A stretch of DNA of 43,599 nucleotides from Clostridia bacterium. Lineage in GTDB: Bacteria > Bacillota > Clostridia > Christensenellales > UBA1242. The translations under genes were made by a program, and so were the position numbers. The notes below the pieces were generated by a model that was not told the DNA's origin, did not search any database, and was given only the letters and a program-made list of their open reading frames with translations. This document shows positions 512-35,357 of this stretch, one piece after another. The stretch covers positions 1 to 43,599 of the forward strand of contig JAAWCQ010000005.1 of assembly GCA_022793335.1 (NCBI GenBank). Direction: 5' to 3'. Numbering within the stretch: position 1 is the first letter of the stretch; each line of letters starts with the position of its first letter.

Positions 512-950
512 GACTGTTATAATTATTCAGTTGGATAGGGCTAGTATAGTTTTTCAGAGGGATTGTTTTAATAAATCTTTTCTTGAAAGTTTTAAATTCT
601 TAAAGTAATTTTAAAAAACAGTGTAATAAATTTACGAGAAATCGGTTGTTAGCCGAGATGTAAAAAACTGATTAGTAATTTTATTGTATAGTTTAATAGT
701 GGTAAGAAGTAGCACAAATCTTGAGTTGTTTAGTTTATAAAGAAACCTTGGATTGTTTGGTTTTATATAGAGAATCAAATAGCATAAGCATTATACAATG
801 TGCTTAATGATAAAGAAGGTTTAAATAAAATTTAATCAATATTTAACTTGTAATTATACATTTAAATTAAGTTTTAAATAAAGCTTCAAATTAAAGATAT
901 AAAATAACATACATAAAAATATTGTATTGAACATGAGAAAAAGGAGGGTT
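512..950. other. AT-rich region without a recognisable gene
   Basis: All frames are closed at short intervals. A short imperfect hairpin (TCGGTT/AGCCGA, near 642-656) lacks a U-run, so I see no terminator between the G11 promoter and the gene at 951. No good -35/-10 pair lies immediately before 951, so that gene may be reached by read-through with a leader of about 660 bases, or by a weak promoter near 900. Confidence 0.5.
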
Positions 951-15456: not shown

Positions 15457-15518
15457 ATATTTAAGAGTTTATTACGCTTAAATATTTCAAAAGCGAAGCC
15501 ACTAAAAAGGAGGCGTTT

Positions 15519-18500
15519 ATGTTGAAGAAAATGTGTAAAGGGGTTTACTTAATTCTGTTTGTTCTGTTTATGGCAGGCAGTTTTTGTTTATTTCCAAGCT
15601 TAAAAGGGGCAAAAGCTGACACAAGCAGCACTACAGAAAAGGTGGCACTTCAGCCACTGGCTGCTTCTATGCCAGACAAGCTTTGGTCAAGCGGAAATGT
15701 AAGCGAAATGGCAGTAAGTAGAGAATCGGTTTATGGGCATGATAATGCTTATGTGGTTTCTGACGCAGCTGGGCTTGCAGAAATTGCTTATAATGTAAAC
15801 CACGGAGTGCAAGATTTCACAGATAAAGTGGTGATTTCACTGAATAGCGACATTGACCTCAATGGCGCTTTGTGGACTCCTATTGGCACAGAAGCTAAAC
15901 CTTTTAAAGGAATTTTCTATGGAAACGGCCACACAATTTCAAACATATCAATTGACGAAGTCTCTTGTGAAGGGGGCTCTAGCGCTAATTCAGGAGCTGG
16001 CTTATTTGGCGTAACTGAAGGCGCAGTTATCACAGATGTAAGACTTACTGGCTGGCAACAAATTTATACAGGCGGCGCAAAGGGTGCGCTTATCGGAATT
16101 ATGAATGGCGGTTATGTAATCAACTGCTATGACGAATGTACAACAAAAACTGACCAATCTGGAAATAACATTAGTAGCATTGGAACAGCTGGGACTTCTT
16201 CTTACATATTTGACGGCTATGCTTATTTAAGCGGAGGAAATCTTAATACTTTGACAGAAACTGAGGCGTCTAAGATTCATATAAAAGCAAGCACGGGCGC
16301 AATCACAAGAGGAAAGGTTGGTTTTTACCAGTCTGGATCAGGTGCTTTCAAATTTGGAAACAAATCGTGGTATGAGCCAAACCTTTTGAGAGTGCTTTTA
16401 AATAATGATTTAACAGATTACACCACTAAAGTTTGCAATCTTTATTACAATACAAACCCAGTGAAAAGAGTTGAAGCTTTGGGAGATGTAAACACAGTTT
16501 ATGTTCTTTTAAATGGGAAAGAGCCTAATATAGCACGAATAACAAACGATGATGCAAGTAATAGTTTTGTAAAATCTATTACTTATGGAGATAAAGAAAT
16601 CTCTGTTCCTTTAAATTATGGTTATGGAACAAGAGGAACGCAAGGAAATGAAATAACTGTTGTATTTAATTATGACCAAACTTTTGCAGATTTCTTCAAA
16701 GATAACGAACAATACAAGACAAGACTTGGTTATGCTTTTGAAGGGCTTTACAGAGGAAGTGAGTCGGGCAGCAAAGTTAATGTCGAGAATGCAGACGACT
16801 ATAACCTTTCTTATCCTCAAATTAGTGGGGAAATTCCTACATATTGCTTTAAATGGAATTGGATTGACGTAATAGAAAATGAAACAGAAAATAAAAATAT
16901 CAGAAACTTTGCTGCAAAATTTGCTTATGCAAGCGATGAAGGTGGAAAAATTGTTCCATTATTAAATGACCCATTTACAAATGTTGTCAAAAGCATGTCA
17001 AGCTCTATGAGCTGGGATGGCAAAGATAAGTATATTACAAACAACGCTTTCACAGGAGACAGCTATACATTCACTGTTGTGTTGAAACAAGGTTTCATGC
17101 TTGCTGACATTGCTTCACAAAGCGAGCCTCACACAGTTTTAAATCAAAAGGGACAGTTGGCAATTGAAAACTATGCTCAAGGCACAATTGTTTTAAACGG
17201 AACAAAAGCTGATGTGACAAGTGGTCTTTATACACACTTTAAAGAATACACAAACATAGGCGGAAGCTATGATATAAGCGGAAAAAACAATGATATTTAT
17301 CAGCCAGTTTCTGTTTATGCAACCAAGTCAAAGACAGAAGATGGGCTTAATCAATATGAGGTCACTGTAGACCATGTTGTTAGTTATGGTGGAACACTTT
17401 ATCTGGTTGTTGAAAGAGAATTTGTCGATGTTGATATCACTCCTGTTGATGTTGATGGAAATTCAATAAATGCAACTTTACCTGCATTCAGATTAAACAT
17501 TTTGCCTTATGCTGACGACAATGCGAGCGGCTTCGTTCATGCAAAGATTATGGTGCAGAAGGGCGGAGAGACTGCTGAATATTCTGTAAATGGCGACTAT
17601 GGTTTTACAACGGGAGAGTTTAATGAAGGCGCTCCACAGGTTGCAGTCGGTGTAATTGACGAGACAAACAGACCAGTTTTCCTTGTAAGATACAACGACA
17701 ATGCAAGTTTCAACATTTCAGTGGTTGATGCATTGAAAGATAACAAGCATTCTGGAAGCAAGTATATCTTGAATGTTGACAGCAAAAACTTCAGTGATAA
17801 CCCAGATGTTCAAGGCTTGCAGAAATACACAACAGAGTTTGTTGCAGGCACAAATGGTGGCTTCAACAGCAATCCAAGCCTTGATTATTATTCAAGTTGG
17901 AACATTAAGCTTCAAGGCGTATATATGACTGGAAGCAAAATTACCACATTTATCGGCACAGTTAGGACAAGAGTAACTATCAACTTCCTTGACTATGCAA
18001 AATATCAACAAAACCCAAATGCAAGTGATGAAGAATTGGCGTTGAACGTCTCTTCAAATGTAATCAAAGCAACAATCAATGCTGGCCAGGCTCTTGGAGT
18101 AAATCTTCAAGGAGTGTTTATTCCTATTATTTCTGGAAAGGATGAAAGTGGGCAAACTCAGGCAAAAGATGATAGTATTGTAATTTCAAAGAATGGCAAA
18201 TATCAAGCTGCAAAAGCTGTCATCATCGAGACAAAAGACGGCACTACAAAAGAGATTGAAGCGAACAATGGAAAAAAATATTTTGAAGGAACAACTGATA
18301 TTGACAGCGCTTATTATCTAAGTGAATACTATAAATCTTCAGTTGTATCTGCAAAAGAGTTGTTCAAGACAGCTTACAGTCATGCTGACGAGATAAACTA
18401 TGAAATCAAGATCTATTTTGAAGAACGCAGTTATGACTTAAAAGTTGAATATTATGTATCTGACGGCAGTGTTGAAAATGTTGTTCAGGTGACTGATGAA

Positions 18501-21500
18501 AACAAAGCGGTGCTTTTTGATAGTTTCTATCAAGGTGCTGTTGGGCTTAAACCAAACAGTGAAGGCAGAGAGTTTGATGTAAATTATGCTCTCACAACTA
18601 TCGGCTCTGGTGCAATATATCGCACAGCAAAATATGAGCTTTGGCAGGACGGAAAGAAGGCTCTTTATAATGACGGAGCTGACCATGACGACTTTGCAAA
18701 CGAAGATGAATATCAAAAGGGCGGCTATAACAGCTCTGAGGCAAAGGTTAGCATTGGTGACTATGACACAGTTTTAAAAGTTTATTTTGAATATAAGCAA
18801 GTTGAGCTTAACATCAACAAATTGTTTGTAAGAGATGACTCAAGCTTGGTAGATATTGACACACCTCATCTTGCAACACTGACTTTCAGTTTCTCAAGCG
18901 AGGGCGTATTAAGCTTAAGCGGTGAGATTGGAAGCATTGCACTTGACTCGCAATATTATCTGCTTGGCTGGTATCTTAAAAATGGTGAAGTGGTAAGCAC
19001 AGAAGAGGGTTCTTATGACGGGCTTAAAGCAAATCAAGCTTTCGTTGACGCTATTGCGACAGCGGGCAGCAGTCAAGGCAATACTGTGGTGTTTAATGAT
19101 TTGGCAGCACTTGTTGCGAGAAGGACTGTTTCTGTAAAATACAATGCCGGTGAAGCGGGCGAAGGCAAGCTTTACGAAAATACTGACAGCGGGCTTACTC
19201 TTGAAAATAAAAACCTTGTTGAAACTACTTCTGGTGCACTGAATGTAATCAAGGCTGATGGCGCACTTACCTTCAACACAAAAATCAATCTTTCAAATTA
19301 TAGTTTCTTCAATCTTGGATATGCTTTCAATACATATTCAGTTAAATACGGCACCGTTGCTGATGAAAACGGAGTGCTTACCTTTATTCTTAATGGAAAG
19401 GGCTGGATTGACCTTTTCAATGAAGCGGGCAACAATATTTCAGCAACCAGCGTTCAGACATGGAACAAGTTTGCTTCAACTGACGGCGAAAAGTTTGCCA
19501 CTGTTGACCTTGTTGCACAATGGAACATTATAAAATATATCTTAAGCGTTGATGACGGTTATGGCACACCAAAAGAGCTTTCAATTGGTGACAAAATTTA
19601 CTTCAACGAAACAACAGAAAAGACAGGCGTTGCAAACTATACAATTTCAGACACCTCATCTCCTGTTGTAACTCAAACTTTCTCAGGTGCTACTAAAAAC
19701 GGTTATGTTGCCAAAGGTTTCAGTCTTTCTCAAGATGGAAAGATTACCAAGCTTGGTGGCGGTGATACAAATTATAAACTCACTCCAGAGCTTTTCTTGC
19801 AATTTATTGCTGAAGATTATAAGTTTGCAATAAATGACAATGACAGCCCAATCATGCTTACAACCGAGCGTGATCCTGCAAGATATATCATCAGTCTTGT
19901 TAATTCAGACGGCGGATATTACACTTATGCTTGGGACGAAACTAAGGACGGCGGCGACTGGGGACAAATTGACGGAAATGGTCAAATTACAATCAATGCA
20001 ACTTATGATGCCCTTCCATCAAATATTCTTGATGCTGTAAGTGGTGGAGCGCTCAGCGTAAACAGACTTGGCTATCGCTTGGTTGGCTGGGCTTATTCAG
20101 CACTCGACGGCGACAACAAGGGTGTTCAAACTGGCGTATTTAAGACAGACGAAATTTTCAAATCATTAAGTGATATTGCAGTTGTTCCTGTTTGGGAAAA
20201 GGTTGACAATACAACCACTGCACAAATCAAGTTTAGTGATGATGTGACTGCTTCTGGAAAACCTATCTTCTATCTGCTCAACTCGCACGATGTAATAAGA
20301 GGCTTCCTTGGCGGAAACAATGTTGACGGAAACAACAATTCAGCTTCAGACAAAAATCTGGTGCTTAAAAATGGCGAGAAGGTGACAGGCTTTAAATTCA
20401 TTGTCACTTCAGCTGACGGCACAGTTTCCTTTGAGACTGTTGACCTGTTTAATATAAACAAACTGTTAAAAAATGGCGATTATTCAATTAAGTTTGAAAT
20501 CACAATTGCCGATACTCTTACAAGATATGGCCTGAAAGATGATGGAACAATCGGGCTTGGAACAATTTCTTATTCAGCCACTAGTGCAATGCTTGACTTC
20601 ACTATGGCTAAAAACGAGCTTTATTTCTTCGACAACAACTTCGCAACTATATATAATGGCACAAAGGAATTTGTTGAGGGCGTAAGCAATGATTATGGTC
20701 AGTTTATCTATAAGTTTGACTGGGATGGAACAGACAGGTCACAACTTGAGACTAAACCAGAGCCAAAGGCTACAGAAGATTATTTCAATCCAAGTGCTTA
20801 TGAAGTGCTTGACAGTGACGGCAGCGGCAAGTTTAACGCTGGCAGCGGCAAATCACTTAAAATTAAAGTTGATACAGACAAACTTGGTGACATGCTTTAT
20901 GAAAATCTTGTATCAAATGTTGTAGAAGAGGGCGGAAGTTACTATGTAACACTTGACGGCGTTCTTACAATTGAAAAGGCAAGATTTACTGTTGACTTTG
21001 TTGACGGAACAGCTTATTACTTTGACGGCGTTGAAACCACCGTTTATGTCAACAAGGCAAATGAAATTTCTTTCAATGTTGGAAAGGTTACATTCAAATA
21101 TAGTTATTCAAAACTTACTCTCAAGATGGGCTCTCCAGCAGGGGTCTACACAGGCACATTAAATCATGATGAGGATGCAAAAGTGTTCAACATCTATGAC
21201 CTTGCAATTGAAGGACATGTTGATGACCGCGACACAAACTTTGAGTGGAATGTGACAAATGAAAAAAGATTTACCCTTCTTGACTCAAGAGATGCGCTTG
21301 GGCTTGACTACAGCACAAGATATCTCACTGCAAATGGTGGAGTGCTTGCCAATGCTCTTTCATCATTATATAAAGATAAGTCTGACAACTTGTTTATCTC
21401 AAATCTTTTGATTGACAATGTTTCAAAAGAATTGCCAGAAGGCGAGCAGGGAAGTGTAATTTCTGATGACAATCAAGTTGTGCTTTCATTCGTTGGAAAT

Positions 21501-24500
21501 GGCACTCAAGACCTTAAGCTTTTCTTCAACAAAAACTATCTTGCTTCTCACACAGTTTCAGTCAAAGTAAATATTGACATGAGCGTGGAAAGAGAAAATG
21601 ATTTGACTTTGCTTTCATTTGTTTCAAATAGTGCAAACATGACTTCAATTGCAGCTCTCTTCGATGATGGGCTTGTAAGTGGTTATAGTTTGGAAGTTGC
21701 TCCAAATGGCGGCGACGCAAATGCAAGTTTCTATGGCGTTTTGACCGATGTTGTTAAAGTCAATGTGAATTACAATGGCGGAGCAAATGGGGAAGGCGCT
21801 AAAAATGAGACAATCTATACATCTTCAAGCACAGGCGAAGTCGTGCTTAACAATCCAGTGAGAGAGGCTGATTATCTTTCATTCAATGGTTATAACAAAG
21901 AATCTTCAAAAAGCAACATTACAATAAGAGAAGACAGAGACAATGGAAAATGCTTCATATCAAATGCTAAGGCTGGTCAAACAGAGACTATCACTGCGAA
22001 GTGGAAATTCGACCGCTTTGACTTTGAGGTGACAAAGGCACTTGAATATTATGCAAGCGTTTCATCAATCAAATTGCCTCTTTCAGAATTTACTCAAATT
22101 CAAGCACCAAGCGGAGTGACTGGTTTCACTGCGACAATGGTGGGCAAAGATAAGGGTGCAAGCTTCATATTCTCAAGCGTTGACAACTCATTTACAATCG
22201 TGGATAAAAATTCACAGGCAAGCTTCAGCTTAAATGATGTTTATACTGTGACAATTACCTACACCTTCTCTGACGGGTTTGCTCCACAAAGCGTTACTCA
22301 ATCAGAGGAAGTTGGGCTTACCATCAACAGAAATACAATTTCTCTTTCATACAATGGCGGAGACCTTACTTTCAACAACGCCGATCAGAAGGGAAATATA
22401 ATTCTTGACTTTATTATCAATAATAATGAAGAAAGCAAGGGTCAAACAACCCTTCTCAATGTGCCAAACACAGACAACAGCAATGGCGCACTTCGCTTCT
22501 ATGCAAGCGTATATGGCAGCAATGGTCAAATTGCAACTTCTGTAAGAAATGTTGACACATACACAATCAAGGCAAGCATTGACAGCAATATGAAGGGTGT
22601 CTATCAGTTTGCTGATGGCATTTATGAACAAGACCTTGATGTAAATATTATTCAATATGTTATCAATCTATCAAACTATGCTGACGGCTTTGAATTCTTC
22701 AAGTATTTCGGTCTTGAAGACCCAAGCCCAATTAAGGCAACAGTTACAATAAGAGAAAACTCAAATGACACTGTTGACATCTCGTTTGACAGAGTGGCAG
22801 GCGAGGCTATTGGACAATATGCACTTACTGCGGCAAATCTTATGAGCAGTGAGGACAGACAAAACTATGCAATTGATGCAGAAGATTTTGCAAATGTATT
22901 TGATGTTAAATTTGAAATCCGCACACCAAGCGGAAAACTTCAGGTAAGCTTTGATGAAAAGATTATCTATACATACAATGGCTATGCCGCAACCGGCTAT
23001 GCAATTACTTACAACGGCACAAATTATACTCTTACAATCACTGCAGGAAGCGAAAGCTATTCAACCACTTTTGATATTTATTACTTAAGCGGTGACAAAC
23101 AAATCGCAATTCCAGCAGAGGAAAAAGAGCATTATACCCAGTTTATCACCATGACCTCATCGGCTGAAGCAGTATTTGGTGAATATCCACTTTCTGTGGT
23201 GCTCACTCAAGAAGCTGTTGACGCAAATTGGTCTGGCGTAGAATTTGCAAATGCTGACAAAGCACAAATTTCAGTTGAAAAACGCACACTTACAATCAAT
23301 TCAATCGACAAGGTTTATGACGGAACAGTTGACTTTGTTTACAACACTGTAAATAAAGATAAAAACAGCTGCGAAATAAATCTGTCAGGTCTTGTTTCAG
23401 TAAATGGCGTCGATGACGAAGTTTCAATCAGCGGAAAAATTTCGCTTAAGAATGCTGGAAAGAGAAATCTTTCAAATGTTGCGCTTTCAAATGTGGGCAG
23501 AGGCGGAAGCTATACTCTCGTGTATGCTGATGACCTTCAAGCCACAGTTATTGCTGACAGCACAAGCACAGTTTCATTCAATACCACTCTTACAAATCTT
23601 CCTTATGGAGACTTAAAAGAGGATACAAGCCTTGAAATTGTGATAAACAAGTTTGCTCCAACTTTCAGCTATGCAGGCGGAAAGACTGGCGAAATTGACA
23701 AAAACTGCTTTGTTATCACAGACTATGAGATTAAGGATGCAGTTTACTCAACAGGCAAATATCTCAAAGCTGGCACTTACACAATCGTGTTTACAGTGAC
23801 ATCAAAAGATTTCACTTTCAAAGGTGCACTTGGCGGACTTGACGAGGTTTATACAACAACTTATGAAAAGACCATTGTTGTTGATAAGAAGGTAATTGAA
23901 ATCACAAATTCAACCCTTACTATCACAAAACAATATGATGGAAACAATGAATTGCTTGGCAAGTTTGTTGGGCAAAATGTAAATGCTGTTGGTGGCTTCT
24001 ATTCATCAAACGGCGTGCTTAGTGGTGATATTATCACTGTGACAAGCGGAACATATTCTGACTCACTTATCGCAAGTGGAAAGAAGGTGACTCTTGTCTA
24101 TAACTTAAGTGCTGATGACAGCGAAAACTATACAATTACAACAAATGTTACTGGCGATATTACAAGCACTCCACTCATCTTCAACAAGAATGGAAATTCT
24201 GGTGATATCTACAACCCAGTTTCAGACAAATATGAGACAACCTTCGCAAATGACGGAATTACCTCATTTGAAAATGCAGACCCAATGTCACTTTCTTACA
24301 ATGGAAACATTGACAGTCTTATCGGAGACATTCTTGCAAGCGGAAATCGTTTGATAAGAAAAGGCTATACAAATACAGGCTGGAAACTTGGAGTTGGCGA
24401 AAGTGCAATCACAATTTCAAGAGATATGAGCGCTGAAGATAAGGCAACTCTGCTTCAAGCGGCAGTTGACGGCGGCTCTATTGGAATTGAAATCAATGCA

Positions 24501-27500
24501 ATTTGGGAAAGAAATTCTTATACTGTCACCTTTGCAATTGCAAACGGACAGTTAAGCATTGACGGCAGCGGGGCAGGCACAACTTTAATTCTTCCTTATT
24601 ATAATGAAGGGAATGAAGTTGTCACTCTTGTTGTAACTGCAGATGAAGGCTACAAATTTATTGGCAGAACGCTTTCTGCGGCAAACATAGACGCAGTAAT
24701 TGCAAGTGGCCAAAACGACAAAAATGCAACTATTACTCTTGCAAGAATTACAGACAATGTCACTCTTACAGTAAACACTTCTGAGATTGTTGTGAGAATT
24801 ATTGTTGACTACAACAAGCCAGGAAGCGACTATGTCGTTTCAACAGAGACTGAAGGCTGGATTGGCGTTCAATCTCGTGACCTTAAATACAGCGAAATGC
24901 TGGCTGGAGACCTTCCAGAGCTTACCCTCAACCATGGTTATATTTTTGACCGCTGGACAACTGGTGGAGTTTTGGGCGAAGCTGGCGGCGTTGTAAATAC
25001 AGGCGAAAACATCTGGCAAAGAATAAACGGAGCCTCTCTTGAAAGAGACAACTTGGCAGGAATTACCTTCTATGCAAGTTGGAAAGAGGACGAAATTGAT
25101 GTAAACATTTCTTATTCAAATGCAAGCATTGCTGTGTTTGACATTGACGAAGACAGAGAAATCGCTCCAACAAATGTTGACGGAAAGGATGTTTACAAAG
25201 TTTTATACACACACGATATCAGAATTGAAATCACTTCAAACGATTTCTATAAGTGGACTGGTTTTGAAGTAACTCCGGAAAAGAGCTTTGGCTTTACTGA
25301 GTCTAAGCCAAATAATCACAGAACTGGGGAAGCAATCATTGATACAATCAAAGATACAACAAATGTAAAAATTACAATTTCACCAATGAAATTCTCATTC
25401 GCGACAAGTTATGTTACTCCAGACGGCACTGAAATCGCCGAAAAGAGCGGTGACATAAGTGGCGAATATGACATTACAAAAGGTGAAAACTTCACTCTTA
25501 GTGATTTATTTGCAAACAAGACATACACTGCAGCCATTGGCACTTACACTCAAGAAGCTTGGGCAGAAGGCCTCGCAAACAACTTTGCACTCAATGCAAA
25601 ACTTGTTGATGTCATCAAAGCAATCTGCGGCGGCGTGCCAGAAGAGGAGCGTTATGACAAGAATGGAATTACCTTAAAAGCGGTGTTTAAAGGTGTAATT
25701 TACACAGTTACTTTTGATAAAACCGACAGAGAAGGGGTTGACTTTGCAGGGGCAGAAGCTGGACAGCAAACTGTGACAAGACAGTATGAATACGGCAAGC
25801 CAATGACAAACATTCCAACTCTTACTCAATCAGACGATGAAGAATATGTATGGCATAAGATTGAAAACCAAGGCACACAAGCTCAAATTGTTGAGACTTT
25901 CGCTGAAGGTCAACTTCTTATCAGTCAGCATTTCAGAAGCGCCAGCCATACTCTTGACCTTAAAGCTGCTTGGGGACTTGTTTACGACCTCGTAATCGAT
26001 ATTACAGGCAATGTTGACAAGTATAACTCAGTCAAATATGACGGCTTTAACGAAAGCGGAACAAAGATCGAAGTGCGCTATTTCAATGGTGCAACAAAAC
26101 TCTTTACCTTCAGCCTTGCAAAAGGTTATGAACTTGGCGAAGTTTCAGGCCTTGAAAGTGAAAAGTATATTCTCACCGAAAATACTCTCACAATTTTGGG
26201 TCTCGAAGATCATACAAATATTACAGTCAGCATTGTGGCAAAAGCTTACAATGTGACAATTGAAACAAATGAAAAAGGCTATTACACAATTTCTGGAACA
26301 ACTCAGTTTGAAATCAGATATGATGAAAACATAGCAGCAAAATTCAATTCTCTCATCTTTACAAGACCAGGCTATGACCTTAAAGCTTTGATGTGGGGGA
26401 CAAGAACATTTGCAACCTTTGATGGCTCTGCTTTCACTTTCGCAAGCGAGTTTATCAATGGCACAGGCTTCATTGTAAGCGATGATGAGCTTTATGAAAT
26501 TGTTAATGGAACAAGAGACATCACGCTCAGCCCAGTATGGCAGGTTAAGGCAGATTATTCTTATATCAGCCTTGTGACAACAGGCGCAACTCTCACTTAC
26601 AATGGTGCAGAGCAAGCTGTTGCAACTTCTGGCATTTATGTGGATGGCACTGAAGTATTAAGTATTGGCGTTCAGGGCAATGGTGATGAGATAACTGGCT
26701 ATTACTATATGCTTGACGGCGTGAGAACAAACGCTGCAAGTGATTTCAGTCTGATGCAAAAGAATGTTCTTTCTGGAAAGACAATTTTCGTAATCGAAAT
26801 TAAAGATACCTTGACAGGTCAGACAAGAACGCTTTCATCAAGCGAGGTAAATGTAGAGATAGTTAAGTCGTCGATTGCTATTTCGGATGCAAAACTTTCA
26901 ACCTTCTATTCAGGTACAAAGGTTTACTATCCAACATCTGATGACGCTCAGCTCAACAGTCTCGGAAAGGTGACTTATGCGGCTGACGGCGCAGACAACA
27001 GAGAATTGAGCATTGACAGAGTAGAGCTTATTGATGATAATGGCTTGTATGAAGCCGGAAACAGCTTTACAGTTAAATACTATTTAAATAATGCTGGCGG
27101 TTTTGATATTTCAAACTACAGCGGACTTTCAATCGAGGGTGGTTTCGTCACATTCGTGACTGATGACAGCCTCAAGGCAAAGGTTGAGAAGGCTCAAATC
27201 ATCCTTTCATTCAGAGAAAAGGGTTATTACAAAGATGCCGCTCACACTGTGAGGAATTTGGAATTTGTTACCTCAGCTGGCGTGGAAACCTTTGATATTA
27301 AAGTTAACAAAGTTACTACAAACGACAAAGTTATTAAAGTTTATGACCTTGCATCAGAGTTTGTTTATGAATACTCAGCTGTGGATGCTATGGGCGTAGA
27401 AAGAAAGAATAACTTTGAAATATTGCTTGCAGAAGATAGTTTCTTTGAAATTATCTCAACTGACCAAGCTTACAGAATTGACCTTCAAACTAAATATTTC

Positions 27501-30500
27501 AACGCTGGCGACTTCACACTTGCTGACAATAGTGCAAATGTGGTTAAGGCAACTGGCTTTGAACAGACAAATGTAGGTATTAAAGGCACTCTTGAAAACG
27601 GAGACCTCAACTTCATGACCAGCGAAGGCGAGCTTTTATTCTCAATCGTTGGAAATGGACAAAGCGGTGCATACATTCTCATTCAAAAGGGAGTTTCACT
27701 TTCACTCAGTCTTGAAATTGGCGGCACAATGAATGTGCTTCAATGGAACGAGCTTAGCGAAAATGAAGCAGAACAAATTGCAGAGCTTACCACCGTTCTC
27801 AACACTCTTGAAGGGGCAGCAGCTCGCACAGAGACTAGAGAGGTGAGTGACGATGCAACCATTGTTGCGTTTGTGACTGATTACAAAGCAATTATGCTCA
27901 GACTTGGTGATATTGCAAGTGAAGGCAAGGGTGACACAGGTTATGTTTATGTCAAACTTGGCTCAAGCGTTTCACTGCCAAGCCCAGAAGCAGACGACCA
28001 TGAGGGTGACATTAAAGGTTTTGAATTTGAAAGCTGGATAAGCGCAAATGACAAACTCACCATTGCAGGAAGCACTCTTACAGCTTCAGCTGATGCTGGA
28101 ATTGCTACAGACAGCGTGACTGCAAACTGGTTGCTTGAAACTCCAGACGGAGTAAGTCAAGATATAACCTTCTCTGCTAAGATTGACCTCAACGGCAAGG
28201 AAGAAATCACACTTGACAGAATGCTTGGTGGCGAGGGTGATATTACAAACAGAAATGGTCTCATTTCTTACACATACCGCATTACAAAGGGCGGAGTTGA
28301 AGTGGCAACTAGTGACACCTTCACTCTTCCAACAAATACATCGTCAAACGGAGAATATATTCTCACAATTACAGCAAGCAGGTCTGGCTATCAACCAAAA
28401 TCACTTGAGCTTAGCTTCAATGTGACTGTTGAAAGACTTGTGCTTGGCGCTATGGAGCTTAGTGACATCAAATTTGTTTACCAAAACAAAGATTTCCTTC
28501 CAGAGCTTTATGTGACCTTCACTGGCGCAGGGCTTGGCAGAGAAAAGGTTGCTGACCTTCTTGGCAAAGCTGACAGCTCATACAGCCTTACACTCACTGA
28601 AGATAAGACTGGTGTAAATGTTGGCGAAATCAAACTTGCGGGCACATACACTGTTGCTCTTGTTGCAGACGAAACAATCTTTGACCTTTCTTCTGCTTCA
28701 CTTGACAGTGAAATTCAAATTGTTGTTGCTCAGGCAGAAATCGTTGTGGGCATGGATGACATTCCAAGCGCGTTCAGGTCAAAACTGTTTGGCAACACCG
28801 ACCCAGAATTTAACATTGATACAACCATGTTTGAAGGTGACGCTCAACAAGAGCTCACAATCTCTCTTTCAAGAGAAAGCGGAGAAAACATTGGCACTTA
28901 CAGATTTACTGTAGGCAGACCAAGCAATGACAACTTCTATGTTACTATCACTGAGGATGCAATCTTCACAATCAACCAATCTGATGTTGAAGTTACCATC
29001 CGCGTTGACAACCCTCTTGTTGTCACATACACTAAAAAAGCACCAACAATCACTCTTACTTATGACAACCTTGCTGGAAAGTGGGTTATCACTCTTGGCG
29101 AGGCAAGCTCAACCATCACTCTTACTTATGTTGATGGAGATGAAGTGAAAGAGCTTGATGGCTTCCTTAAAGTGCTTGCTCTTGAAAATCTTACCTTGAC
29201 AGCAGATGGTGCAATCAATGCAGCTTCTTACAGCGAGGCGGACATCACCATCAGCGGAAGAGGAAACTTCTCTTCATATCTGCTTGATGTTGATTTCACA
29301 ATCGAAAAGGTAGTGCTTAATCTTGACAGCACAAGCAAAGTGTTTGACAGAAATGACACAATCAATAAAGAAGACGCAAACTTTACAAATGTTGTTGAAG
29401 GTGACGAGGTATATCTTACAGGAAGATATGCTCAAGTTACAGCAGGTCAAAACATTGACCTCTTAGGCATTGCTATTGCGGGCGCAGACATTGCAAACTA
29501 CATCTTGCCAGAAGGCAAATATGTGGGCTCAATCACTCCAGCCGTAGTTGAAAGCGTATCATTTGATATTACAAACAAGACTTTCACTTATGGTCAGATT
29601 GGCGTAAATACTGCAATTGAAGATGTGCTTGCTCTCATTGAAGGCTTCACTCTTTCAATTGGCGGAGTTACAACCGATGTAGAAAATGGCTTTGCTTCAA
29701 TCAGCTCAATCTTGCTTGATAATGGCAGCATTTCTGGTGCTGGACTTCTTAAAGCGGGCAGTGACATGACTATTTCATTTGTCATCACTTCTTCAAACTT
29801 TGTTGGGCTTATGTCAAACGGCTACAGCATAACAGTTGAAATCAAAGTGAAAGACCTTGACCTTTCAAGTGTTGAAGTTGTGAAACAATATGATGAAACA
29901 AACAAACTTCCTGCTTCATTCGATACAAATATTGACGCTTATATTGAAAGCGGAGACAGGGTTGAAATTGACCTTGACAACAGTGGCTTCTATGATGCTG
30001 AGGTTGGCACAAACAAACCAGTGCTTCTTTCAATTAAGGGCGAAGATAGTGCAAACTACAAAGTGCTTAATAATGTGAAAGGTGATATCAACAACTTCAC
30101 AATTGAAATTGTTGTAAATGCTTCAACAGAGCACGCAGACCTTGTAAGTGGTGGCAAGTTTGTAAGTGACGGAATTGTTGCTGAAGGCTTTACATTCAAA
30201 GTGGGCTATCCACTTCAAAATATAACAGCCGAAGAACTTCTTGCTTCATTCAGACAGCCAACAAGAAAAGGTTATAAATTCGCAGGTTATAAACTTGCAC
30301 AAAATGGTGGATATATCACTCTTGACAGCTCAAATATTGTAGATGTGCTTAAAGAGGTTGTTACAACCCAATCTGGCGAAAACTTGACTTTAAATATTTA
30401 CGCTTCTTGGACAATTGAAAAATATTCAATTACATTAAGTGGAAACAATGTTGAAGATATTACAGTCACAGCAAACCCAGCAAACGCACTTACAAACGTT

Positions 30501-33500
30501 GACGGAGTTTATTATGTTGAATATTTCACCGATGTTGAAATTGATTTCGTGGGTGAAAGAGGTTTCAAAGTAAGGTCTTACAACCTTGCAAGTGGAGAAA
30601 CAAAAGACAAAGATTTGACTGATACTGGCAATTTGAGAGGAAAGGCAATCTTGAAGGGCATTGCTTCAGCCGTTGTGCTCAGCGTGACCTATGATGAGAT
30701 GGAAATTACATTAAGCATCAATCTCAACCTTCCTGCAAATACAAACAGAACAGACTCAAATTCACTTTCTCCAGTTTATAAATACTCAGAGCTTGCTTCA
30801 ATTACAGAAGAAAATCTACCAAGACTTACTGCTACTGAAGGTACTTACACCTTAGAGCGTTATACCTACTCAAATGGCTTGAGACTTGGTGAGAAAAACT
30901 TCCAGCAAATTGTTGATGAGCTTTTCCCAGACCTTGACGGCGACAAGACTGTTGTGCTTGACGCAGTTTGGACAAGTGCAGTTTATAAGATTACCTTTGA
31001 CGCAACCGATGGTGCAATCAATGGCTCGAATGTAATTTCTGCTCGTTATGGTCAGGCGCTTGGCGCATTCCCACAAGCAGTGCTTGCTGGAAAGAATGCT
31101 CAGTGGAACGATAAAGATGGAAAAATTTATAATGAAGGTGACATTTTAGAGACAATCGGCGTTTATGACGCAAACGAAAATGTATTCACACTTACCTTTG
31201 CTGCAACTTGGACAAATGCTCCATTCGACCTCACACTCGTGTTTGACGATGGACTTACTGTCAATGTAAACGGCAACAATATCTTAAGTGGTCAGACCTT
31301 CACACTCGTTTACAACGAGACAAATCTTCAAGTGGCTGTTACTCCAAAACAGGGCTACACCTTTGAAGTGAATGATGAAAATCTTCATGGAGAAATCACA
31401 AACAATGGTTACTTCATCATTAAAAACTTAATCGCAGACAGCTCAGTTGTCTTCAACATTTTGCCAGATGACAATACTCTTCAACTCTTCAATGAAAACA
31501 TTGCAAATTATCAAGTGTTCATTGATGACGAAGAAGTGACAATTTCAGGCACAACTGTTGTTGCTAAGACAGAGCAAAGAGTGAGAATTGTCTACACTGC
31601 TAAGAAGGGTTATGAATTTACCGAATCAAGCGTTGTATTTGCTGGAAACGGAAAAGTCAATGCTCCAATCATCAGCGAAGACAAGAAGACTCTTACTTAT
31701 GTTTGGGAAGAGTTTGTAAGCGGTGCTTCACTTTCAGTGCGCGCTCAGGCCGCTCTCAATAAAGTGACTGTAAGCGATGTGAGAAACATCTTCTTAAGAC
31801 TTTCATTCAATTCAACAAATATTACACTTTCAGGCGACACCTTCTTAATCAGAACAGGTGAAACCTTCACAGTAAGCGGCGTTATGGCCTATGGCTACAC
31901 TGCTGGCAACCTTGCAACAGGACAGAACAACTATGTTGTTGAAGGCAGCGTGTCAAATGTGCTTAATGCTGACGGCTATTATTACTTCTCAGCTTCACTT
32001 GCAGGCTTTGATGAAGACTTTGCAATTGAATTTACAGCTACCCCTCGCACATACACCTTCAGTGTAAATGTGGCTGAAGGTCAGGGCGCGTATGGTGAAA
32101 TCACAAGTGACAGCGTTCAAGTTGTTGACTTTGGCAAGCCAATCACTCTTACTCAGAGAGAGCTTGTTGAAAATTATGAGTTTATCGGTTGGAAAATCGG
32201 TGAGAATGTAATTTCAACAGAGCCAAACACAAACTATGTTGTTTCAAGTGACATCAGAGATGCCTTAGAGGCAGCTGGTGAAGAGGGAATAATTCCAATC
32301 TTTGCATGGTATGCAAGAAAAGAACGCAACATCACCTTTGTTGCTACTGGAAAGGGCAGCTTCACAGCTTCTCAAGAAAGTGAAGAGATTACTGTTGATG
32401 TAATCGGTCAAAACAATGGAAACTTCTTCCTTGGACTTAATGTTGACCTTGTGCTTGCCGCGCAAAATGGTTATGAGCTTTCAGAGATTTTACTTGATGG
32501 AGTTAAGGCAGGCGAGGGTGACTTTGAAATTGACGGAAACAAGATTTCAATTTACCTTGACCTCTATGACCCAATCACACATATTGAAGTGGTGTTTACA
32601 CCAAGCGAAATTGAAGTGGTTGTTCAGTCATCAACTCAAGTAAACTACATTGACAACCTTGGCTCTACTAAGGGCGGAAAGGTATTTGCGACAAACAGTG
32701 ATGGCGAAAGATATTCAGAGGATAAATATCATGAATATCAAGGAAACCTCATAATTGGCGGAAACTACACAATCATTTCTTACACAGATGAAGTGCTTTA
32801 CTTTGAAGTGGTTGCAGAAAAAGGCTTTACAGCTTCAGTTGTCACATCATCTGGAATGATACAAAGCCAGACAACCATAAATGGAAAAGTAATCTATGTA
32901 ATCACTGGCGCGACAAAGGGCTCACAAATTCTTGTACGCTTTATCGCAAAAGAGAACAATATTAAAATTATGTTCGTCAATGAAGGCGAAGATATTACAA
33001 AGGGTGTTCACGGCGGAATTTTCACTGTTGACACATCAAACGAGCTTGTTTCTTCAAGACCAAGCCGTGGTGACTCAATCAATGTTGCAGTTGTCACTGG
33101 CGCAGGCCTTAGAGTAGACATTGCTTCACTCATTTCATACAGCCTCCTTACAGGCGATGACGGATTACTTAAATATCACATTATCTACTCAGGTGACGAA
33201 ACTTTCAACAATATTCAAGTTTCACAAGTTACTGCTGAAGATCCACTCAGCTCAGGCTTCACAAACAGCGCTTACTTTATCATTGATGAAGTGACAGCTG
33301 GCGCAACTATTGTGGTTTATGTAGAGCCAAAAGAATATACTTTGAAATTCGTGGTTGATGAAAACACCTCAGTGACAATGGAAAAGAAAATCCGCTTTGG
33401 CGAAGAGTGGGATTTAAGCAGTCTTTCAGCCAACGATTATGGCACTGTATTTGCAAAGAAGAAGGGCTTCACTTTTGCAGGATATTATTACTACACAAGT

Positions 33501-35357
33501 GACGAGAATGCAATTCAATACATTGACAAATACAATGACATTATGATGAATTGGCAAAACACTGGTTACACTCATAAGGGCTCTATGTATGAACAAGATA
33601 GAAGCTTTGACGCAACAACTCAAACTTTCACACTTTACGCACGCTATGTGTATGACAGGGCAAAAGTAAGAGTGGAAGTGTCACCTTCAAAATATCTTGA
33701 AGACCCAAATTACTCAAACTTCAACTTCATTACAAACCTTGCAGCCCTTGGCTCAAGTGCTTGGACTGGACAGGAAAATCGCTGGTATAGCGAAATTGCT
33801 GTTGGCTCTACCTTAGAGTTTGCAGCTCCAGAAATTGAAGGCTATGAATTTGTTGGCTTTACTGTTCAACTCGATGGCGGAGAAATCACCGAACGCGGTA
33901 AGAGCTTTACAATAAAAGATCTTGTTATGGGTGAATATGTTGTCAGAGCGCTTTACAACCCAACAGTTAAATTCACTATTAAAAACAATAATAATGACTT
34001 TGCAAATGGCGGCGAAAGCTTTGCAAGACAGGATGGCGGAATTTTAAGCGGCAGTTTTGACGCTGGAAAACTCCTCACACTTGTTGCAGTGCCAATTGAA
34101 GGTTATAAATTCTTATACTGGGAAAACAATTCAACAGGCGAGCAATACATTGGCAAGCCTGGAGTTGCTGGCGAAATCGTATATGAATTTACAAACCTCA
34201 TTGATTATCCACTTGACCTTACAGCAGTGTTTGAAGGCCGAAATGTCGCAGTAAACTTCAATGCTGGCGAGCTTGGCTCACTTCACACAATTGTAAAGGT
34301 GCTTGTAAATGGAAAGCAGTGTGATTACAACAGCGTATTCAATGCAGCTGTCGGTGATACTTTGGTGGTTGTTGTTCAGAAATCAAGAGGCTATGGCTTC
34401 GGTCAAAGCATATTTGAATCTGTTTATGACAGCGAAACAAATACTTATGTATTCAGTTATGTCTTAGATGTAAAAGACCTTACTGAAGTTGAGGGCGGAG
34501 ATTACACAATCAAGCTTTCAATTCCAGTCACAAGAGAAGACATAACGCTTGCCTTCAATCTTGCAATGACTGCGCCACTTGATAATGCCGAAATTTTGAA
34601 GTCTGGAACACTCTATTTCATAGACGGCTCTGGCTCTTCAATTAAGGTGAATAATGGTGACCGCAAGACTGTCAAGTATGGCGACAACTTCTCTATGAGA
34701 ATAATCGCAAATGCAAACTATAAGTATGAAAAGACTTATGTGGTTGTTGATGGCATAACCTTTGACGCTTCTGAATATGTGGTAAATGGCACACTTTCAA
34801 TGGGCAAAGATTTCATGGATAGATTCTTTGGTTATCAAATAAACATCTATGTATACTTTGCAAGAGTGCTTTGGACTGATGAAGATGCAAGGGCGTCTGG
34901 ACTTAGCGGAAGCGGTACAGATGAGGACCCATATCTCATCAAAACGGCAAGAGATTTTGCCTTTGTTGCTTATGCAGTAAATAATGGCGAAACAAATGAC
35001 GAGGGCATTCCTTACAGCGAGTGCAGCTATAAAGTAACAAACAGTATCGGCTTTGAAGGCAGATATTGGGAGCCTATCGGCACAAAAGAAAATCCATTCA
35101 AGGGCAAGATAGACCTTGGCGCACATGAATTTAAGAATGTGCTTCATTACAAGAGCTATCCAGAACCAAGACTTAGCTACAGTGGACTTTTCTGGTGCGT
35201 TGATAAAGATGCTCAAATCACTGTCAATACCAAGACAATGACAACAATCATTATTGTAATTGTAGTAGTTGTCGTAGTTGTAATCTTAATAATCATTTTG
35301 ATTATCCTTCTTGCTAAGAGAAGAAAGAAAAAACTTGATAAACTTGCAAATCAATAA
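15519..35357 (+). CDS. Giant secreted repeat protein, 6,612 residues, C-terminal membrane anchor
   Basis: One uninterrupted frame, roughly 0.7 MDa. ATG follows AAGGAGG. A signal peptide is clear (basic start, hydrophobic core, likely cleavage A-K-A|D at 32-33). A GLUG/PYL module follows at about 75-210 (WTPIG, FKG, GNGH). Most of the protein is beta-rich repeats. InlB-B/Flg_new anchors of the form G-Y-x-F-x-G-W/Y recur (near 1517, 2948, 3139, 4918, 5552, 5982, 6107, 6195). MBG/YDG-type blocks lie near 2590, 2800, 4605 and 4785. A second, shortened PYL/GLUG module is at about 6460-6560. Residues 6574-6600 form an Ile/Val-only membrane helix followed by KRRKKK, so the chain is anchored by its C-terminus with no LPXTG. 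Cysteines are very few. The likely role is a long fibrous adhesin or surface layer; the ligand is unknown. Confidence 0.9.
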   Translation: MLKKMCKGVYLILFVLFMAGSFCLFPSLKGAKADTSSTTEKVALQPLAASMPDKLWSSGNVSEMAVSRESVYGHDNAYVVSDAAGLAEIAYNVNHGVQDFTDKVVISLNSDIDLNGALWTPIGTEAKPFKGIFYGNGHTISNISIDEVSCEGGSSANSGAGLFGVTEGAVITDVRLTGWQQIYTGGAKGALIGIMNGGYVINCYDECTTKTDQSGNNISSIGTAGTSSYIFDGYAYLSGGNLNTLTETEASKIHIKASTGAITRGKVGFYQSGSGAFKFGNKSWYEPNLLRVLLNNDLTDYTTKVCNLYYNTNPVKRVEALGDVNTVYVLLNGKEPNIARITNDDASNSFVKSITYGDKEISVPLNYGYGTRGTQGNEITVVFNYDQTFADFFKDNEQYKTRLGYAFEGLYRGSESGSKVNVENADDYNLSYPQISGEIPTYCFKWNWIDVIENETENKNIRNFAAKFAYASDEGGKIVPLLNDPFTNVVKSMSSSMSWDGKDKYITNNAFTGDSYTFTVVLKQGFMLADIASQSEPHTVLNQKGQLAIENYAQGTIVLNGTKADVTSGLYTHFKEYTNIGGSYDISGKNNDIYQPVSVYATKSKTEDGLNQYEVTVDHVVSYGGTLYLVVEREFVDVDITPVDVDGNSINATLPAFRLNILPYADDNASGFVHAKIMVQKGGETAEYSVNGDYGFTTGEFNEGAPQVAVGVIDETNRPVFLVRYNDNASFNISVVDALKDNKHSGSKYILNVDSKNFSDNPDVQGLQKYTTEFVAGTNGGFNSNPSLDYYSSWNIKLQGVYMTGSKITTFIGTVRTRVTINFLDYAKYQQNPNASDEELALNVSSNVIKATINAGQALGVNLQGVFIPIISGKDESGQTQAKDDSIVISKNGKYQAAKAVIIETKDGTTKEIEANNGKKYFEGTTDIDSAYYLSEYYKSSVVSAKELFKTAYSHADEINYEIKIYFEERSYDLKVEYYVSDGSVENVVQVTDENKAVLFDSFYQGAVGLKPNSEGREFDVNYALTTIGSGAIYRTAKYELWQDGKKALYNDGADHDDFANEDEYQKGGYNSSEAKVSIGDYDTVLKVYFEYKQVELNINKLFVRDDSSLVDIDTPHLATLTFSFSSEGVLSLSGEIGSIALDSQYYLLGWYLKNGEVVSTEEGSYDGLKANQAFVDAIATAGSSQGNTVVFNDLAALVARRTVSVKYNAGEAGEGKLYENTDSGLTLENKNLVETTSGALNVIKADGALTFNTKINLSNYSFFNLGYAFNTYSVKYGTVADENGVLTFILNGKGWIDLFNEAGNNISATSVQTWNKFASTDGEKFATVDLVAQWNIIKYILSVDDGYGTPKELSIGDKIYFNETTEKTGVANYTISDTSSPVVTQTFSGATKNGYVAKGFSLSQDGKITKLGGGDTNYKLTPELFLQFIAEDYKFAINDNDSPIMLTTERDPARYIISLVNSDGGYYTYAWDETKDGGDWGQIDGNGQITINATYDALPSNILDAVSGGALSVNRLGYRLVGWAYSALDGDNKGVQTGVFKTDEIFKSLSDIAVVPVWEKVDNTTTAQIKFSDDVTASGKPIFYLLNSHDVIRGFLGGNNVDGNNNSASDKNLVLKNGEKVTGFKFIVTSADGTVSFETVDLFNINKLLKNGDYSIKFEITIADTLTRYGLKDDGTIGLGTISYSATSAMLDFTMAKNELYFFDNNFATIYNGTKEFVEGVSNDYGQFIYKFDWDGTDRSQLETKPEPKATEDYFNPSAYEVLDSDGSGKFNAGSGKSLKIKVDTDKLGDMLYENLVSNVVEEGGSYYVTLDGVLTIEKARFTVDFVDGTAYYFDGVETTVYVNKANEISFNVGKVTFKYSYSKLTLKMGSPAGVYTGTLNHDEDAKVFNIYDLAIEGHVDDRDTNFEWNVTNEKRFTLLDSRDALGLDYSTRYLTANGGVLANALSSLYKDKSDNLFISNLLIDNVSKELPEGEQGSVISDDNQVVLSFVGNGTQDLKLFFNKNYLASHTVSVKVNIDMSVERENDLTLLSFVSNSANMTSIAALFDDGLVSGYSLEVAPNGGDANASFYGVLTDVVKVNVNYNGGANGEGAKNETIYTSSSTGEVVLNNPVREADYLSFNGYNKESSKSNITIREDRDNGKCFISNAKAGQTETITAKWKFDRFDFEVTKALEYYASVSSIKLPLSEFTQIQAPSGVTGFTATMVGKDKGASFIFSSVDNSFTIVDKNSQASFSLNDVYTVTITYTFSDGFAPQSVTQSEEVGLTINRNTISLSYNGGDLTFNNADQKGNIILDFIINNNEESKGQTTLLNVPNTDNSNGALRFYASVYGSNGQIATSVRNVDTYTIKASIDSNMKGVYQFADGIYEQDLDVNIIQYVINLSNYADGFEFFKYFGLEDPSPIKATVTIRENSNDTVDISFDRVAGEAIGQYALTAANLMSSEDRQNYAIDAEDFANVFDVKFEIRTPSGKLQVSFDEKIIYTYNGYAATGYAITYNGTNYTLTITAGSESYSTTFDIYYLSGDKQIAIPAEEKEHYTQFITMTSSAEAVFGEYPLSVVLTQEAVDANWSGVEFANADKAQISVEKRTLTINSIDKVYDGTVDFVYNTVNKDKNSCEINLSGLVSVNGVDDEVSISGKISLKNAGKRNLSNVALSNVGRGGSYTLVYADDLQATVIADSTSTVSFNTTLTNLPYGDLKEDTSLEIVINKFAPTFSYAGGKTGEIDKNCFVITDYEIKDAVYSTGKYLKAGTYTIVFTVTSKDFTFKGALGGLDEVYTTTYEKTIVVDKKVIEITNSTLTITKQYDGNNELLGKFVGQNVNAVGGFYSSNGVLSGDIITVTSGTYSDSLIASGKKVTLVYNLSADDSENYTITTNVTGDITSTPLIFNKNGNSGDIYNPVSDKYETTFANDGITSFENADPMSLSYNGNIDSLIGDILASGNRLIRKGYTNTGWKLGVGESAITISRDMSAEDKATLLQAAVDGGSIGIEINAIWERNSYTVTFAIANGQLSIDGSGAGTTLILPYYNEGNEVVTLVVTADEGYKFIGRTLSAANIDAVIASGQNDKNATITLARITDNVTLTVNTSEIVVRIIVDYNKPGSDYVVSTETEGWIGVQSRDLKYSEMLAGDLPELTLNHGYIFDRWTTGGVLGEAGGVVNTGENIWQRINGASLERDNLAGITFYASWKEDEIDVNISYSNASIAVFDIDEDREIAPTNVDGKDVYKVLYTHDIRIEITSNDFYKWTGFEVTPEKSFGFTESKPNNHRTGEAIIDTIKDTTNVKITISPMKFSFATSYVTPDGTEIAEKSGDISGEYDITKGENFTLSDLFANKTYTAAIGTYTQEAWAEGLANNFALNAKLVDVIKAICGGVPEEERYDKNGITLKAVFKGVIYTVTFDKTDREGVDFAGAEAGQQTVTRQYEYGKPMTNIPTLTQSDDEEYVWHKIENQGTQAQIVETFAEGQLLISQHFRSASHTLDLKAAWGLVYDLVIDITGNVDKYNSVKYDGFNESGTKIEVRYFNGATKLFTFSLAKGYELGEVSGLESEKYILTENTLTILGLEDHTNITVSIVAKAYNVTIETNEKGYYTISGTTQFEIRYDENIAAKFNSLIFTRPGYDLKALMWGTRTFATFDGSAFTFASEFINGTGFIVSDDELYEIVNGTRDITLSPVWQVKADYSYISLVTTGATLTYNGAEQAVATSGIYVDGTEVLSIGVQGNGDEITGYYYMLDGVRTNAASDFSLMQKNVLSGKTIFVIEIKDTLTGQTRTLSSSEVNVEIVKSSIAISDAKLSTFYSGTKVYYPTSDDAQLNSLGKVTYAADGADNRELSIDRVELIDDNGLYEAGNSFTVKYYLNNAGGFDISNYSGLSIEGGFVTFVTDDSLKAKVEKAQIILSFREKGYYKDAAHTVRNLEFVTSAGVETFDIKVNKVTTNDKVIKVYDLASEFVYEYSAVDAMGVERKNNFEILLAEDSFFEIISTDQAYRIDLQTKYFNAGDFTLADNSANVVKATGFEQTNVGIKGTLENGDLNFMTSEGELLFSIVGNGQSGAYILIQKGVSLSLSLEIGGTMNVLQWNELSENEAEQIAELTTVLNTLEGAAARTETREVSDDATIVAFVTDYKAIMLRLGDIASEGKGDTGYVYVKLGSSVSLPSPEADDHEGDIKGFEFESWISANDKLTIAGSTLTASADAGIATDSVTANWLLETPDGVSQDITFSAKIDLNGKEEITLDRMLGGEGDITNRNGLISYTYRITKGGVEVATSDTFTLPTNTSSNGEYILTITASRSGYQPKSLELSFNVTVERLVLGAMELSDIKFVYQNKDFLPELYVTFTGAGLGREKVADLLGKADSSYSLTLTEDKTGVNVGEIKLAGTYTVALVADETIFDLSSASLDSEIQIVVAQAEIVVGMDDIPSAFRSKLFGNTDPEFNIDTTMFEGDAQQELTISLSRESGENIGTYRFTVGRPSNDNFYVTITEDAIFTINQSDVEVTIRVDNPLVVTYTKKAPTITLTYDNLAGKWVITLGEASSTITLTYVDGDEVKELDGFLKVLALENLTLTADGAINAASYSEADITISGRGNFSSYLLDVDFTIEKVVLNLDSTSKVFDRNDTINKEDANFTNVVEGDEVYLTGRYAQVTAGQNIDLLGIAIAGADIANYILPEGKYVGSITPAVVESVSFDITNKTFTYGQIGVNTAIEDVLALIEGFTLSIGGVTTDVENGFASISSILLDNGSISGAGLLKAGSDMTISFVITSSNFVGLMSNGYSITVEIKVKDLDLSSVEVVKQYDETNKLPASFDTNIDAYIESGDRVEIDLDNSGFYDAEVGTNKPVLLSIKGEDSANYKVLNNVKGDINNFTIEIVVNASTEHADLVSGGKFVSDGIVAEGFTFKVGYPLQNITAEELLASFRQPTRKGYKFAGYKLAQNGGYITLDSSNIVDVLKEVVTTQSGENLTLNIYASWTIEKYSITLSGNNVEDITVTANPANALTNVDGVYYVEYFTDVEIDFVGERGFKVRSYNLASGETKDKDLTDTGNLRGKAILKGIASAVVLSVTYDEMEITLSINLNLPANTNRTDSNSLSPVYKYSELASITEENLPRLTATEGTYTLERYTYSNGLRLGEKNFQQIVDELFPDLDGDKTVVLDAVWTSAVYKITFDATDGAINGSNVISARYGQALGAFPQAVLAGKNAQWNDKDGKIYNEGDILETIGVYDANENVFTLTFAATWTNAPFDLTLVFDDGLTVNVNGNNILSGQTFTLVYNETNLQVAVTPKQGYTFEVNDENLHGEITNNGYFIIKNLIADSSVVFNILPDDNTLQLFNENIANYQVFIDDEEVTISGTTVVAKTEQRVRIVYTAKKGYEFTESSVVFAGNGKVNAPIISEDKKTLTYVWEEFVSGASLSVRAQAALNKVTVSDVRNIFLRLSFNSTNITLSGDTFLIRTGETFTVSGVMAYGYTAGNLATGQNNYVVEGSVSNVLNADGYYYFSASLAGFDEDFAIEFTATPRTYTFSVNVAEGQGAYGEITSDSVQVVDFGKPITLTQRELVENYEFIGWKIGENVISTEPNTNYVVSSDIRDALEAAGEEGIIPIFAWYARKERNITFVATGKGSFTASQESEEITVDVIGQNNGNFFLGLNVDLVLAAQNGYELSEILLDGVKAGEGDFEIDGNKISIYLDLYDPITHIEVVFTPSEIEVVVQSSTQVNYIDNLGSTKGGKVFATNSDGERYSEDKYHEYQGNLIIGGNYTIISYTDEVLYFEVVAEKGFTASVVTSSGMIQSQTTINGKVIYVITGATKGSQILVRFIAKENNIKIMFVNEGEDITKGVHGGIFTVDTSNELVSSRPSRGDSINVAVVTGAGLRVDIASLISYSLLTGDDGLLKYHIIYSGDETFNNIQVSQVTAEDPLSSGFTNSAYFIIDEVTAGATIVVYVEPKEYTLKFVVDENTSVTMEKKIRFGEEWDLSSLSANDYGTVFAKKKGFTFAGYYYYTSDENAIQYIDKYNDIMMNWQNTGYTHKGSMYEQDRSFDATTQTFTLYARYVYDRAKVRVEVSPSKYLEDPNYSNFNFITNLAALGSSAWTGQENRWYSEIAVGSTLEFAAPEIEGYEFVGFTVQLDGGEITERGKSFTIKDLVMGEYVVRALYNPTVKFTIKNNNNDFANGGESFARQDGGILSGSFDAGKLLTLVAVPIEGYKFLYWENNSTGEQYIGKPGVAGEIVYEFTNLIDYPLDLTAVFEGRNVAVNFNAGELGSLHTIVKVLVNGKQCDYNSVFNAAVGDTLVVVVQKSRGYGFGQSIFESVYDSETNTYVFSYVLDVKDLTEVEGGDYTIKLSIPVTREDITLAFNLAMTAPLDNAEILKSGTLYFIDGSGSSIKVNNGDRKTVKYGDNFSMRIIANANYKYEKTYVVVDGITFDASEYVVNGTLSMGKDFMDRFFGYQINIYVYFARVLWTDEDARASGLSGSGTDEDPYLIKTARDFAFVAYAVNNGETNDEGIPYSECSYKVTNSIGFEGRYWEPIGTKENPFKGKIDLGAHEFKNVLHYKSYPEPRLSYSGLFWCVDKDAQITVNTKTMTTIIIVIVVVVVVVILIIILIILLAKRRKKKLDKLANQ
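23281..23555 (+). repeat. YDG-type block 1 within the giant protein
   Basis: It encodes TINSIDKVYDGTVDF followed by GLVSVNGVDDEVSISGK and a closing Y-T-L-V. The K-x-Y-D-G start and D-x-V strand are typical of YDG/MBG stalk domains. Borders are approximate. Confidence 0.6.
23919..24175 (+). repeat. YDG-type block 2 within the giant protein
   Basis: It encodes ITKQYDGNNELLGKF, then LSGDIITVTSGTYSD and E-N-Y-T-I-T, with the same order of elements as block 1. Borders are approximate. Confidence 0.6.
29310..29545 (+). repeat. YDG-type block 3 within the giant protein
   Basis: It encodes STSKVFDRNDTINKED, then VVEGDEVYLTGRYAQV and A-N-Y-I-L-P. F-D-R replaces the usual Y-D-G. Borders are approximate. 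Confidence 0.55.
29869..30100 (+). repeat. YDG-type block 4 within the giant protein
   Basis: It encodes VEVVKQYDETNKLPASF, then IESGDRVEIDLDNSGFYD and A-N-Y-K-V-L. Y-D-E replaces Y-D-G. Borders are approximate. Confidence 0.55.

Follow-up and report, generated by a model that had tools for sequence, protein, structure and literature searches.

The nearest described counterparts of the gene reported here are Giant1-5 of Apilactobacillus kunkeei, which are encoded by five genes in a row, carry DUF5776/SH3b-like C-terminal domains without a predicted transmembrane (TM) helix and, in Giant1-3 and Giant5, have alpha-helical middles (PMC12863079). Giant open reading frames (ORFs) of more than 20 kb, with proposed roles in adhesion or predation, also occur in the reduced genomes of Omnitrophota; most of those in Velamenicoccia are described as poorly conserved and most of those in Omnitrophia as having multiple TM helices (PMC10066038). 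Here, we describe an ORF of 6,612 codons plus stop (positions 15519..35357, forward strand) in a 43,599-nt stretch of DNA from a Clostridia bacterium (the window), which makes up a complete contig (G000:C4) in a draft assembly of 17 contigs and 1.406 Mb. With a probability of roughly 0.6, we read its product as a whole as a giant adhesin or tether that is anchored in the membrane by its C-terminus, a function that we infer. Giant surface proteins in small genomes are of a known kind, and size alone is not new here; the A. kunkeei proteins are of similar scale, and their solenoid tip resembles the one predicted here (PMC12863079). What is new is an internal duplication of about 2,000 residues, cap domains bracketing both ends, and repeated length changes by one block, all of which an earlier note on this DNA, made from the letters alone, had missed. 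Compared with Giant1-5, the protein is encoded by one gene, has a TM anchor, caps at both ends and a beta-type stalk that differs from four of the five Giants, and has duplicated and lost a block of about 2,000 residues (PMC12863079); compared with the Omnitrophota giants, it has one TM helix and clear conservation (PMC10066038). Our literature search, whose coverage did not extend to bioRxiv preprints, found no description of the family.

Comparison of the protein's profile with itself showed that residues ~1440-5330 consist of two ancient copies of the block, copy 1 at residues ~1440-3564 (19836..26210, on the forward strand, as are all features of the gene given below) and copy 2 at residues ~3565-5330 (26211..31508), both also recovered by hidden Markov models (HMMs). 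Pfam, which was run on the protein in 10 segments, found YDG (PF18657; 50.5 bits, E 2.5e-13, cut-off 25) and MBG_2 (PF18676; 34.6 bits, E 2.9e-8, cut-off 25) over cut-off in the second block only, in the beads at residues 4350-4885 (28566..30173). The YDG/MBG-like beads of copy 1, at residues 2320-2900 (22476..24218), have no Pfam YDG match and were found by self-comparison and HMMs; as these modules are equivalent, the “four” YDG-type blocks counted in the earlier note are a fair description. Behind the blocks, residues 5331-6451 (31509..34871) form a divergent InlB/Flg_new-like array with mutual profile matches. Here, Flg_new_2 exceeded its cut-off (29.4 bits, E 8e-7, cut-off 23.6) and Flg_new did not (22.9 bits, E 9.6e-5, cut-off 27), so that the InlB/Flg_new-type repeats proposed earlier hold for Flg_new_2 and otherwise lie mostly under the Pfam cut-offs. 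Nothing else in any segment passed a Pfam cut-off, and no NCBIfam family did, its best rows covering only the TM region. Proteins with stalks of InlB B-repeat, YDG and MBG domains are a known group. The giant protein shares YDG, MBG_2 and Flg_new_2 with them over cut-off, and differs in being far longer, TM-anchored and colinear among species. At the DNA level, we found no tandem array in the gene and only 2 weak families of direct repeats (25-34 nt); the repeats are indeed divergent, as had been noted, and recent tandem copying was rejected.

A comparison of length among relatives, which the earlier note had proposed for strains, yielded two main classes. Among the stop-to-stop frames of 44 genomes of the genus, 30 are long (6,039-6,875 codons) and 12 are short (4,312-4,925 codons, including that of G007, which looks split between contigs), while those of G026 (5,669 codons) and G079 (7,067 codons) fall outside both classes. 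Block HMMs found two copies in 13/20 long forms and one copy in 9/11 short forms; the short forms G011 and G021 had no match, and G076 and G026 carry arrays of ~190-residue YDG modules instead of block copies. In four short forms, the single block begins like copy 1 and ends like copy 2, changing over once, ~1,000 (G062), ~1,000 (G010), ~1,300 (G083) and ~1,200 (G078) residues into the block; the chimeras of G062 and G010, which are sisters, may represent one event. For G077, the switch is clean when the block is compared with its sister G002 but not when it is compared with the average over all long forms, and in G028 and G082 the switch is only suggestive. As controls, the long forms G000, G018, G008 and G004 were found to have both copies without a switch. 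Because copy 1 and copy 2 each stay distinct along the block, the idea that independent duplications made the long forms is not supported within this inner clade. The outer long-form controls G002, G067 and G084 showed mixed windows, with copy 1 of G084 leaning to copy 2 in its first half, and for these forms we are less sure how old the duplication is. When 5,000 residues is taken as the boundary between the classes, a tree built from the C-terminal part (31 rows) requires 7 or more class changes and a TrpS tree (22 rows) 5 or more. Most simply, one block has been lost repeatedly and in frame, with length changing in other ways in G076, G026 and a second clade, which reaches ~6.2-6.45 kaa with different internal repeats. 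In other words, length has apparently shifted repeatedly between about 6,400 and 4,400 residues via loss of one internal block; given the one-block chimeras and the repeated class changes, reach has therefore been altered stepwise. The five long forms of the second clade (L160, L167-L170) have two cap domains near the N-terminus and internal repeats of ~385-420 residues.

The gene itself is intact: it starts with ATG, has no internal stop, and is preceded 5 nt upstream by a Shine-Dalgarno-type AAGGAGG (15507..15513, +) read from the sequence, and its product has a calculated mass of 723 kDa. Its 19.8 kb do make up 45% of the window, as stated earlier, but since the window is one whole contig, 1.4% of the genome is the better figure. 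Using the C-terminal 313 residues as query, we obtained a match at E<=0.001 in 60/61 genomes of the genus, which in 56 of them extends to about the query end (position at least 303 of 313); G012, G023, G032 and G071 have weak, partial matches only, and G013 has none. Of these 56 genomes, 44 have a frame that runs without a stop for at least 4,000 codons, and the open frames of 262-3,150 codons in the remaining 12 are taken to be contig ends; no stops within the C-terminus matches were reported in the rows listed. Judging from these frames, the giant protein is a genus hallmark and its large size is normal for the genus, contrary to the earlier impression of an exceptional size. In ten of the 30 relatives compared, BLAST segments line up colinearly with the giant protein over more than 5,400 residues, the longest segment being ~6,250 residues (G029, G079), and G018 aligns with residues 774-6611 at 35% identity. 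Coverage is 1,811-3,752 residues for 11 short forms, 968-1,634 for the five second-clade forms, ~2,400-2,500 for G076 and G026, and only 412 and 657 for the long forms G067 and G084, in both of which the HMMs found both blocks. The relatives identified via trpS are uncultured Clostridia assemblies, one of them labelled Christensenella. Within the order, a C-terminal profile matched at E<=1e-10 in 112/297 genomes; outside the own family, the matches listed end by position 131/162, in frames of 413-4,366 codons, and thus cover the cap alone. At family level, matches at E<=1e-25 occur in 34/147 genomes and 8/42 genera, with frames of up to 8,682 codons. A universal length was rejected, as large frames in other genera range, for example, from 5,267 to 8,682 codons.

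In four orthologue pairs, dN/dS was 0.41, 0.14, 0.20 and 0.14, with dS saturated in all but the first (G022/G029); together with the colinear orthologues, this agrees with the earlier view of old, selected repeats. Within G022/G029, dS is 2.4 in the window 3500-4000 of G022 and 0.15-0.74 in the remaining 12 windows, a sign that a segment may have been exchanged. That the ORF is an assembly artefact, or a fused or decaying gene, might be proposed for a 17-contig draft genome, but the intact orthologous frames in many separate genomes and dN/dS well below 1 weigh heavily against this, leaving the proposal next to no credit. The giant ORF is neither an artefact nor a one-off.

Both ends of the protein point to a surface location, in keeping with what had been proposed. 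A signal peptide is read by eye at residues 1-33 (15519..15617), with an A-K-A|D type site, and a basic start, a hydrophobic core and a PS motif recur in the signal regions of orthologues. At the other end, a hydrophobic TM helix, judged by eye at residues 6576-6599 (35244..35315), precedes the basic, presumably cytoplasmic tail KRRKKKLDKLANQ (35316..35354). Helix and basic tail, which set the protein apart from Giant1-5, are kept in all 17 rows of our alignment A1, which covers the cap, the helix (hydrophobic in 17/17) and the tail, with consensus RRxRKKKxEELANx; ELAN is missing and the basic part kept in 4 rows, all of the second clade. At E<=1, Pfam matched no DUF5776 domain within the last 612 aa of the protein. 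The earlier note had also seen no sortase motif, and in our analysis the last 120 residues contained nothing resembling LPxTG, and no sortase was found in the own genome or in 30/31 genus genomes searched, which distinguishes the protein from sortase-anchored LPxTG proteins and, with its serine content of 8.0% overall, from serine-rich repeat adhesins (SRRP, SraP). No SLH domain was found in the own genome; a penicillin-binding protein (PBP) transpeptidase was. A TM anchor without sortase is therefore supported as a prediction from sequence. G004 is the sole sortase-positive genome among the 31, with three matches (L180-L182). The giants of G322 and G425 (L193-L196), which belong to a different genus of the same family, have a long polar tail behind the TM helix, strongly acidic in G322, in contrast to the short basic tail here.

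For the far tip, a structure model predicts a distal beta-solenoid head at residues ~57-351 (15687..16571). Its best structural match is a putative IgA1 protease solenoid, and no Foldseek match reached E<=0.001. Searches of PDB sequences found nothing at E<=1 with the N-terminal profile, mainly TM helices with the C-terminal profile (best E 0.0092), and only 3n6z with the cap (E 0.17). With a stalk model covering one 1,071-residue part, these weak models suggest a distal beta-solenoid head on an all-beta stalk. The resemblance of the head would also fit a giant enzyme or attack protein, related to IgA1 proteases and acting on host or microbial targets. This is very improbable, as no peptidase family was found at E<=1 in any of the 10 segments, where only YDG, MBG_2 and Flg_new_2 passed their cut-offs.

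The cap domains bracket the protein, the N-cap at residues 56-171 (15684..16031) and the C-cap at residues 6452-6567 (34872..35219), the latter defined by self-comparison, HMMs and alignment A1. They are paralogous (hhalign E 2e-22, with HMM matches) and match each other only, and no other part of the protein at E<1e-3. The same bracketing was found in 4/4 inspected giants of other genera with a homologous C-terminus, with a weak N-cap score in one (16 bits, G371). The two caps might therefore dock, either in cis, closing a loop, or in trans, linking molecules into chains or cells to one another. We consider such pairing quite unlikely, since the same cap also occurs in 13 smaller surface proteins and may be a mere folding cap. 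These proteins (584-1,326 aa) come from those parts of the own genome that were read; they lie at window positions 927-4913 (+), L174-L177 and L202-L204, and most share a C-terminal motif like DFSNWxxLASGxPLPxGLAW. Flg_new has 91 matches at E<=0.01 in the own genome, one of them in the giant. Segments of ~0.6-1 kb are 89-96% identical among the paralogues L001 (C6 end), L175 (C12), L202 (C2 end) and L203 (C9 start); because three of these four near-identical segments sit at contig ends, the breaks in the assembly there probably stem from recent exchange between members of the family. Among the stretches compared, no near-identical copy of giant segments was found.

We compared codon use with 19 ribosomal-protein genes and 87 other ORFs from seven genome stretches and the window. 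The giant gene ranks 6th of 88 in ribosomal likeness, its score of 0.016 being just below that of the lowest ribosomal gene (0.017-0.250, leave-one-out). Counts against the flanking genes confirmed that it uses more GGC, GAC, TTC and CTT than they do, as had been seen by eye. In the larger comparison, TTC is 0.48 (0.47 in ribosomal and 0.22 in other genes), GAC 0.56 (0.53 and 0.40), CTT 0.60 (0.63 and 0.46) and GGC 0.46 (0.30 and 0.34). An expression-type bias fits TTC, GAC, CTT, ATC, TAC and AGA, and leaves GGC unexplained; from this bias, the protein is probably well expressed. A foreign origin was rejected, as the gene is genus-wide and most of the shifted codons point to the ribosomal-protein set. 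The same bias, the net charge of -365, the length classes kept in the genus despite low identity, and the second clade that attains 6.2-6.45 kaa with different internal repeats would all suit a structural coat or spacer, in which a brush or layer made of many copies would cover the surface and keep neighbours, phages or immune molecules at a set distance; it would have no specific ligand, and length, not the head, would be the selected trait. We find this unlikely, because N-terminal residues ~1-640 align as a segment of their own in many relatives, the head model resembles ligand-binding solenoids, and relatedness may partly explain the length classes.

As an adhesin or tether, the protein would be exported by Sec, retained in the membrane by its one C-terminal helix and short basic cytoplasmic tail, and cross the peptidoglycan. 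Perhaps 70 all-beta beads (Ig/cadherin-like, YDG/MBG and InlB-like) would then form the stalk that holds out the head, which may bind glycans on the host surface or on neighbouring microbes. At a bead size of ~90 residues and 4 nm, the reach could be roughly 250-300 nm for the full form and roughly 170-200 nm for the short one, so that the long reach beyond the cell wall imagined earlier is plausible as an estimate. Reach would be adjusted in steps of ~2,000 residues through loss of one of the two ancient paralogous blocks, presumably by in-register recombination in the YDG/MBG beads, as the chimeric pattern suggests. More tentatively, and with considerable doubt on our side, length itself may be the selected trait, making the protein a stepwise-adjustable ruler or tether: lineages would toggle the tip between two heights by cutting out precisely one block in register, the crossovers falling in the YDG/MBG beads, and the second clade would attain the same long length with different repeats.

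The conserved neighbour of the giant gene is trpS (14087..15151, reverse strand; named by eye), which lies within about 1.5 kb of it in 22/30 genomes, including the own, and was not in the upstream stretch examined in the other 8. Genes that we take by eye to be rnpA, yidC, jag, dnaA and recF also lie near it, in line with the origin-proximal location claimed earlier, but every 2-kb bin has a positive GC skew, which shows neither a flip nor any sign of an origin within the window. A conserved dnaA neighbourhood was not seen: of the 59 loci searched, whose flanks are unequal and often short, 2 contained dnaA, and both belong to the set of 18 named trpS loci. A lipoprotein gene, BIg-domain-like by eye (window 12523-13746, -), adjoins trpS and recurs at several trpS loci (for example, L009, L010, L011 and L012).

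A genus with genomes of 0.7-1.5 Mb that keeps a protein of 4,300-7,000 residues in most species and, to judge from codon bias, seems to express it well, probably depends on it. Forms with one block and forms with two amount to a natural experiment on the way bacteria set how far a surface adhesin reaches, and the crossover data offer a concrete, testable route by which a giant protein can change length without losing its reading frame or domain register.
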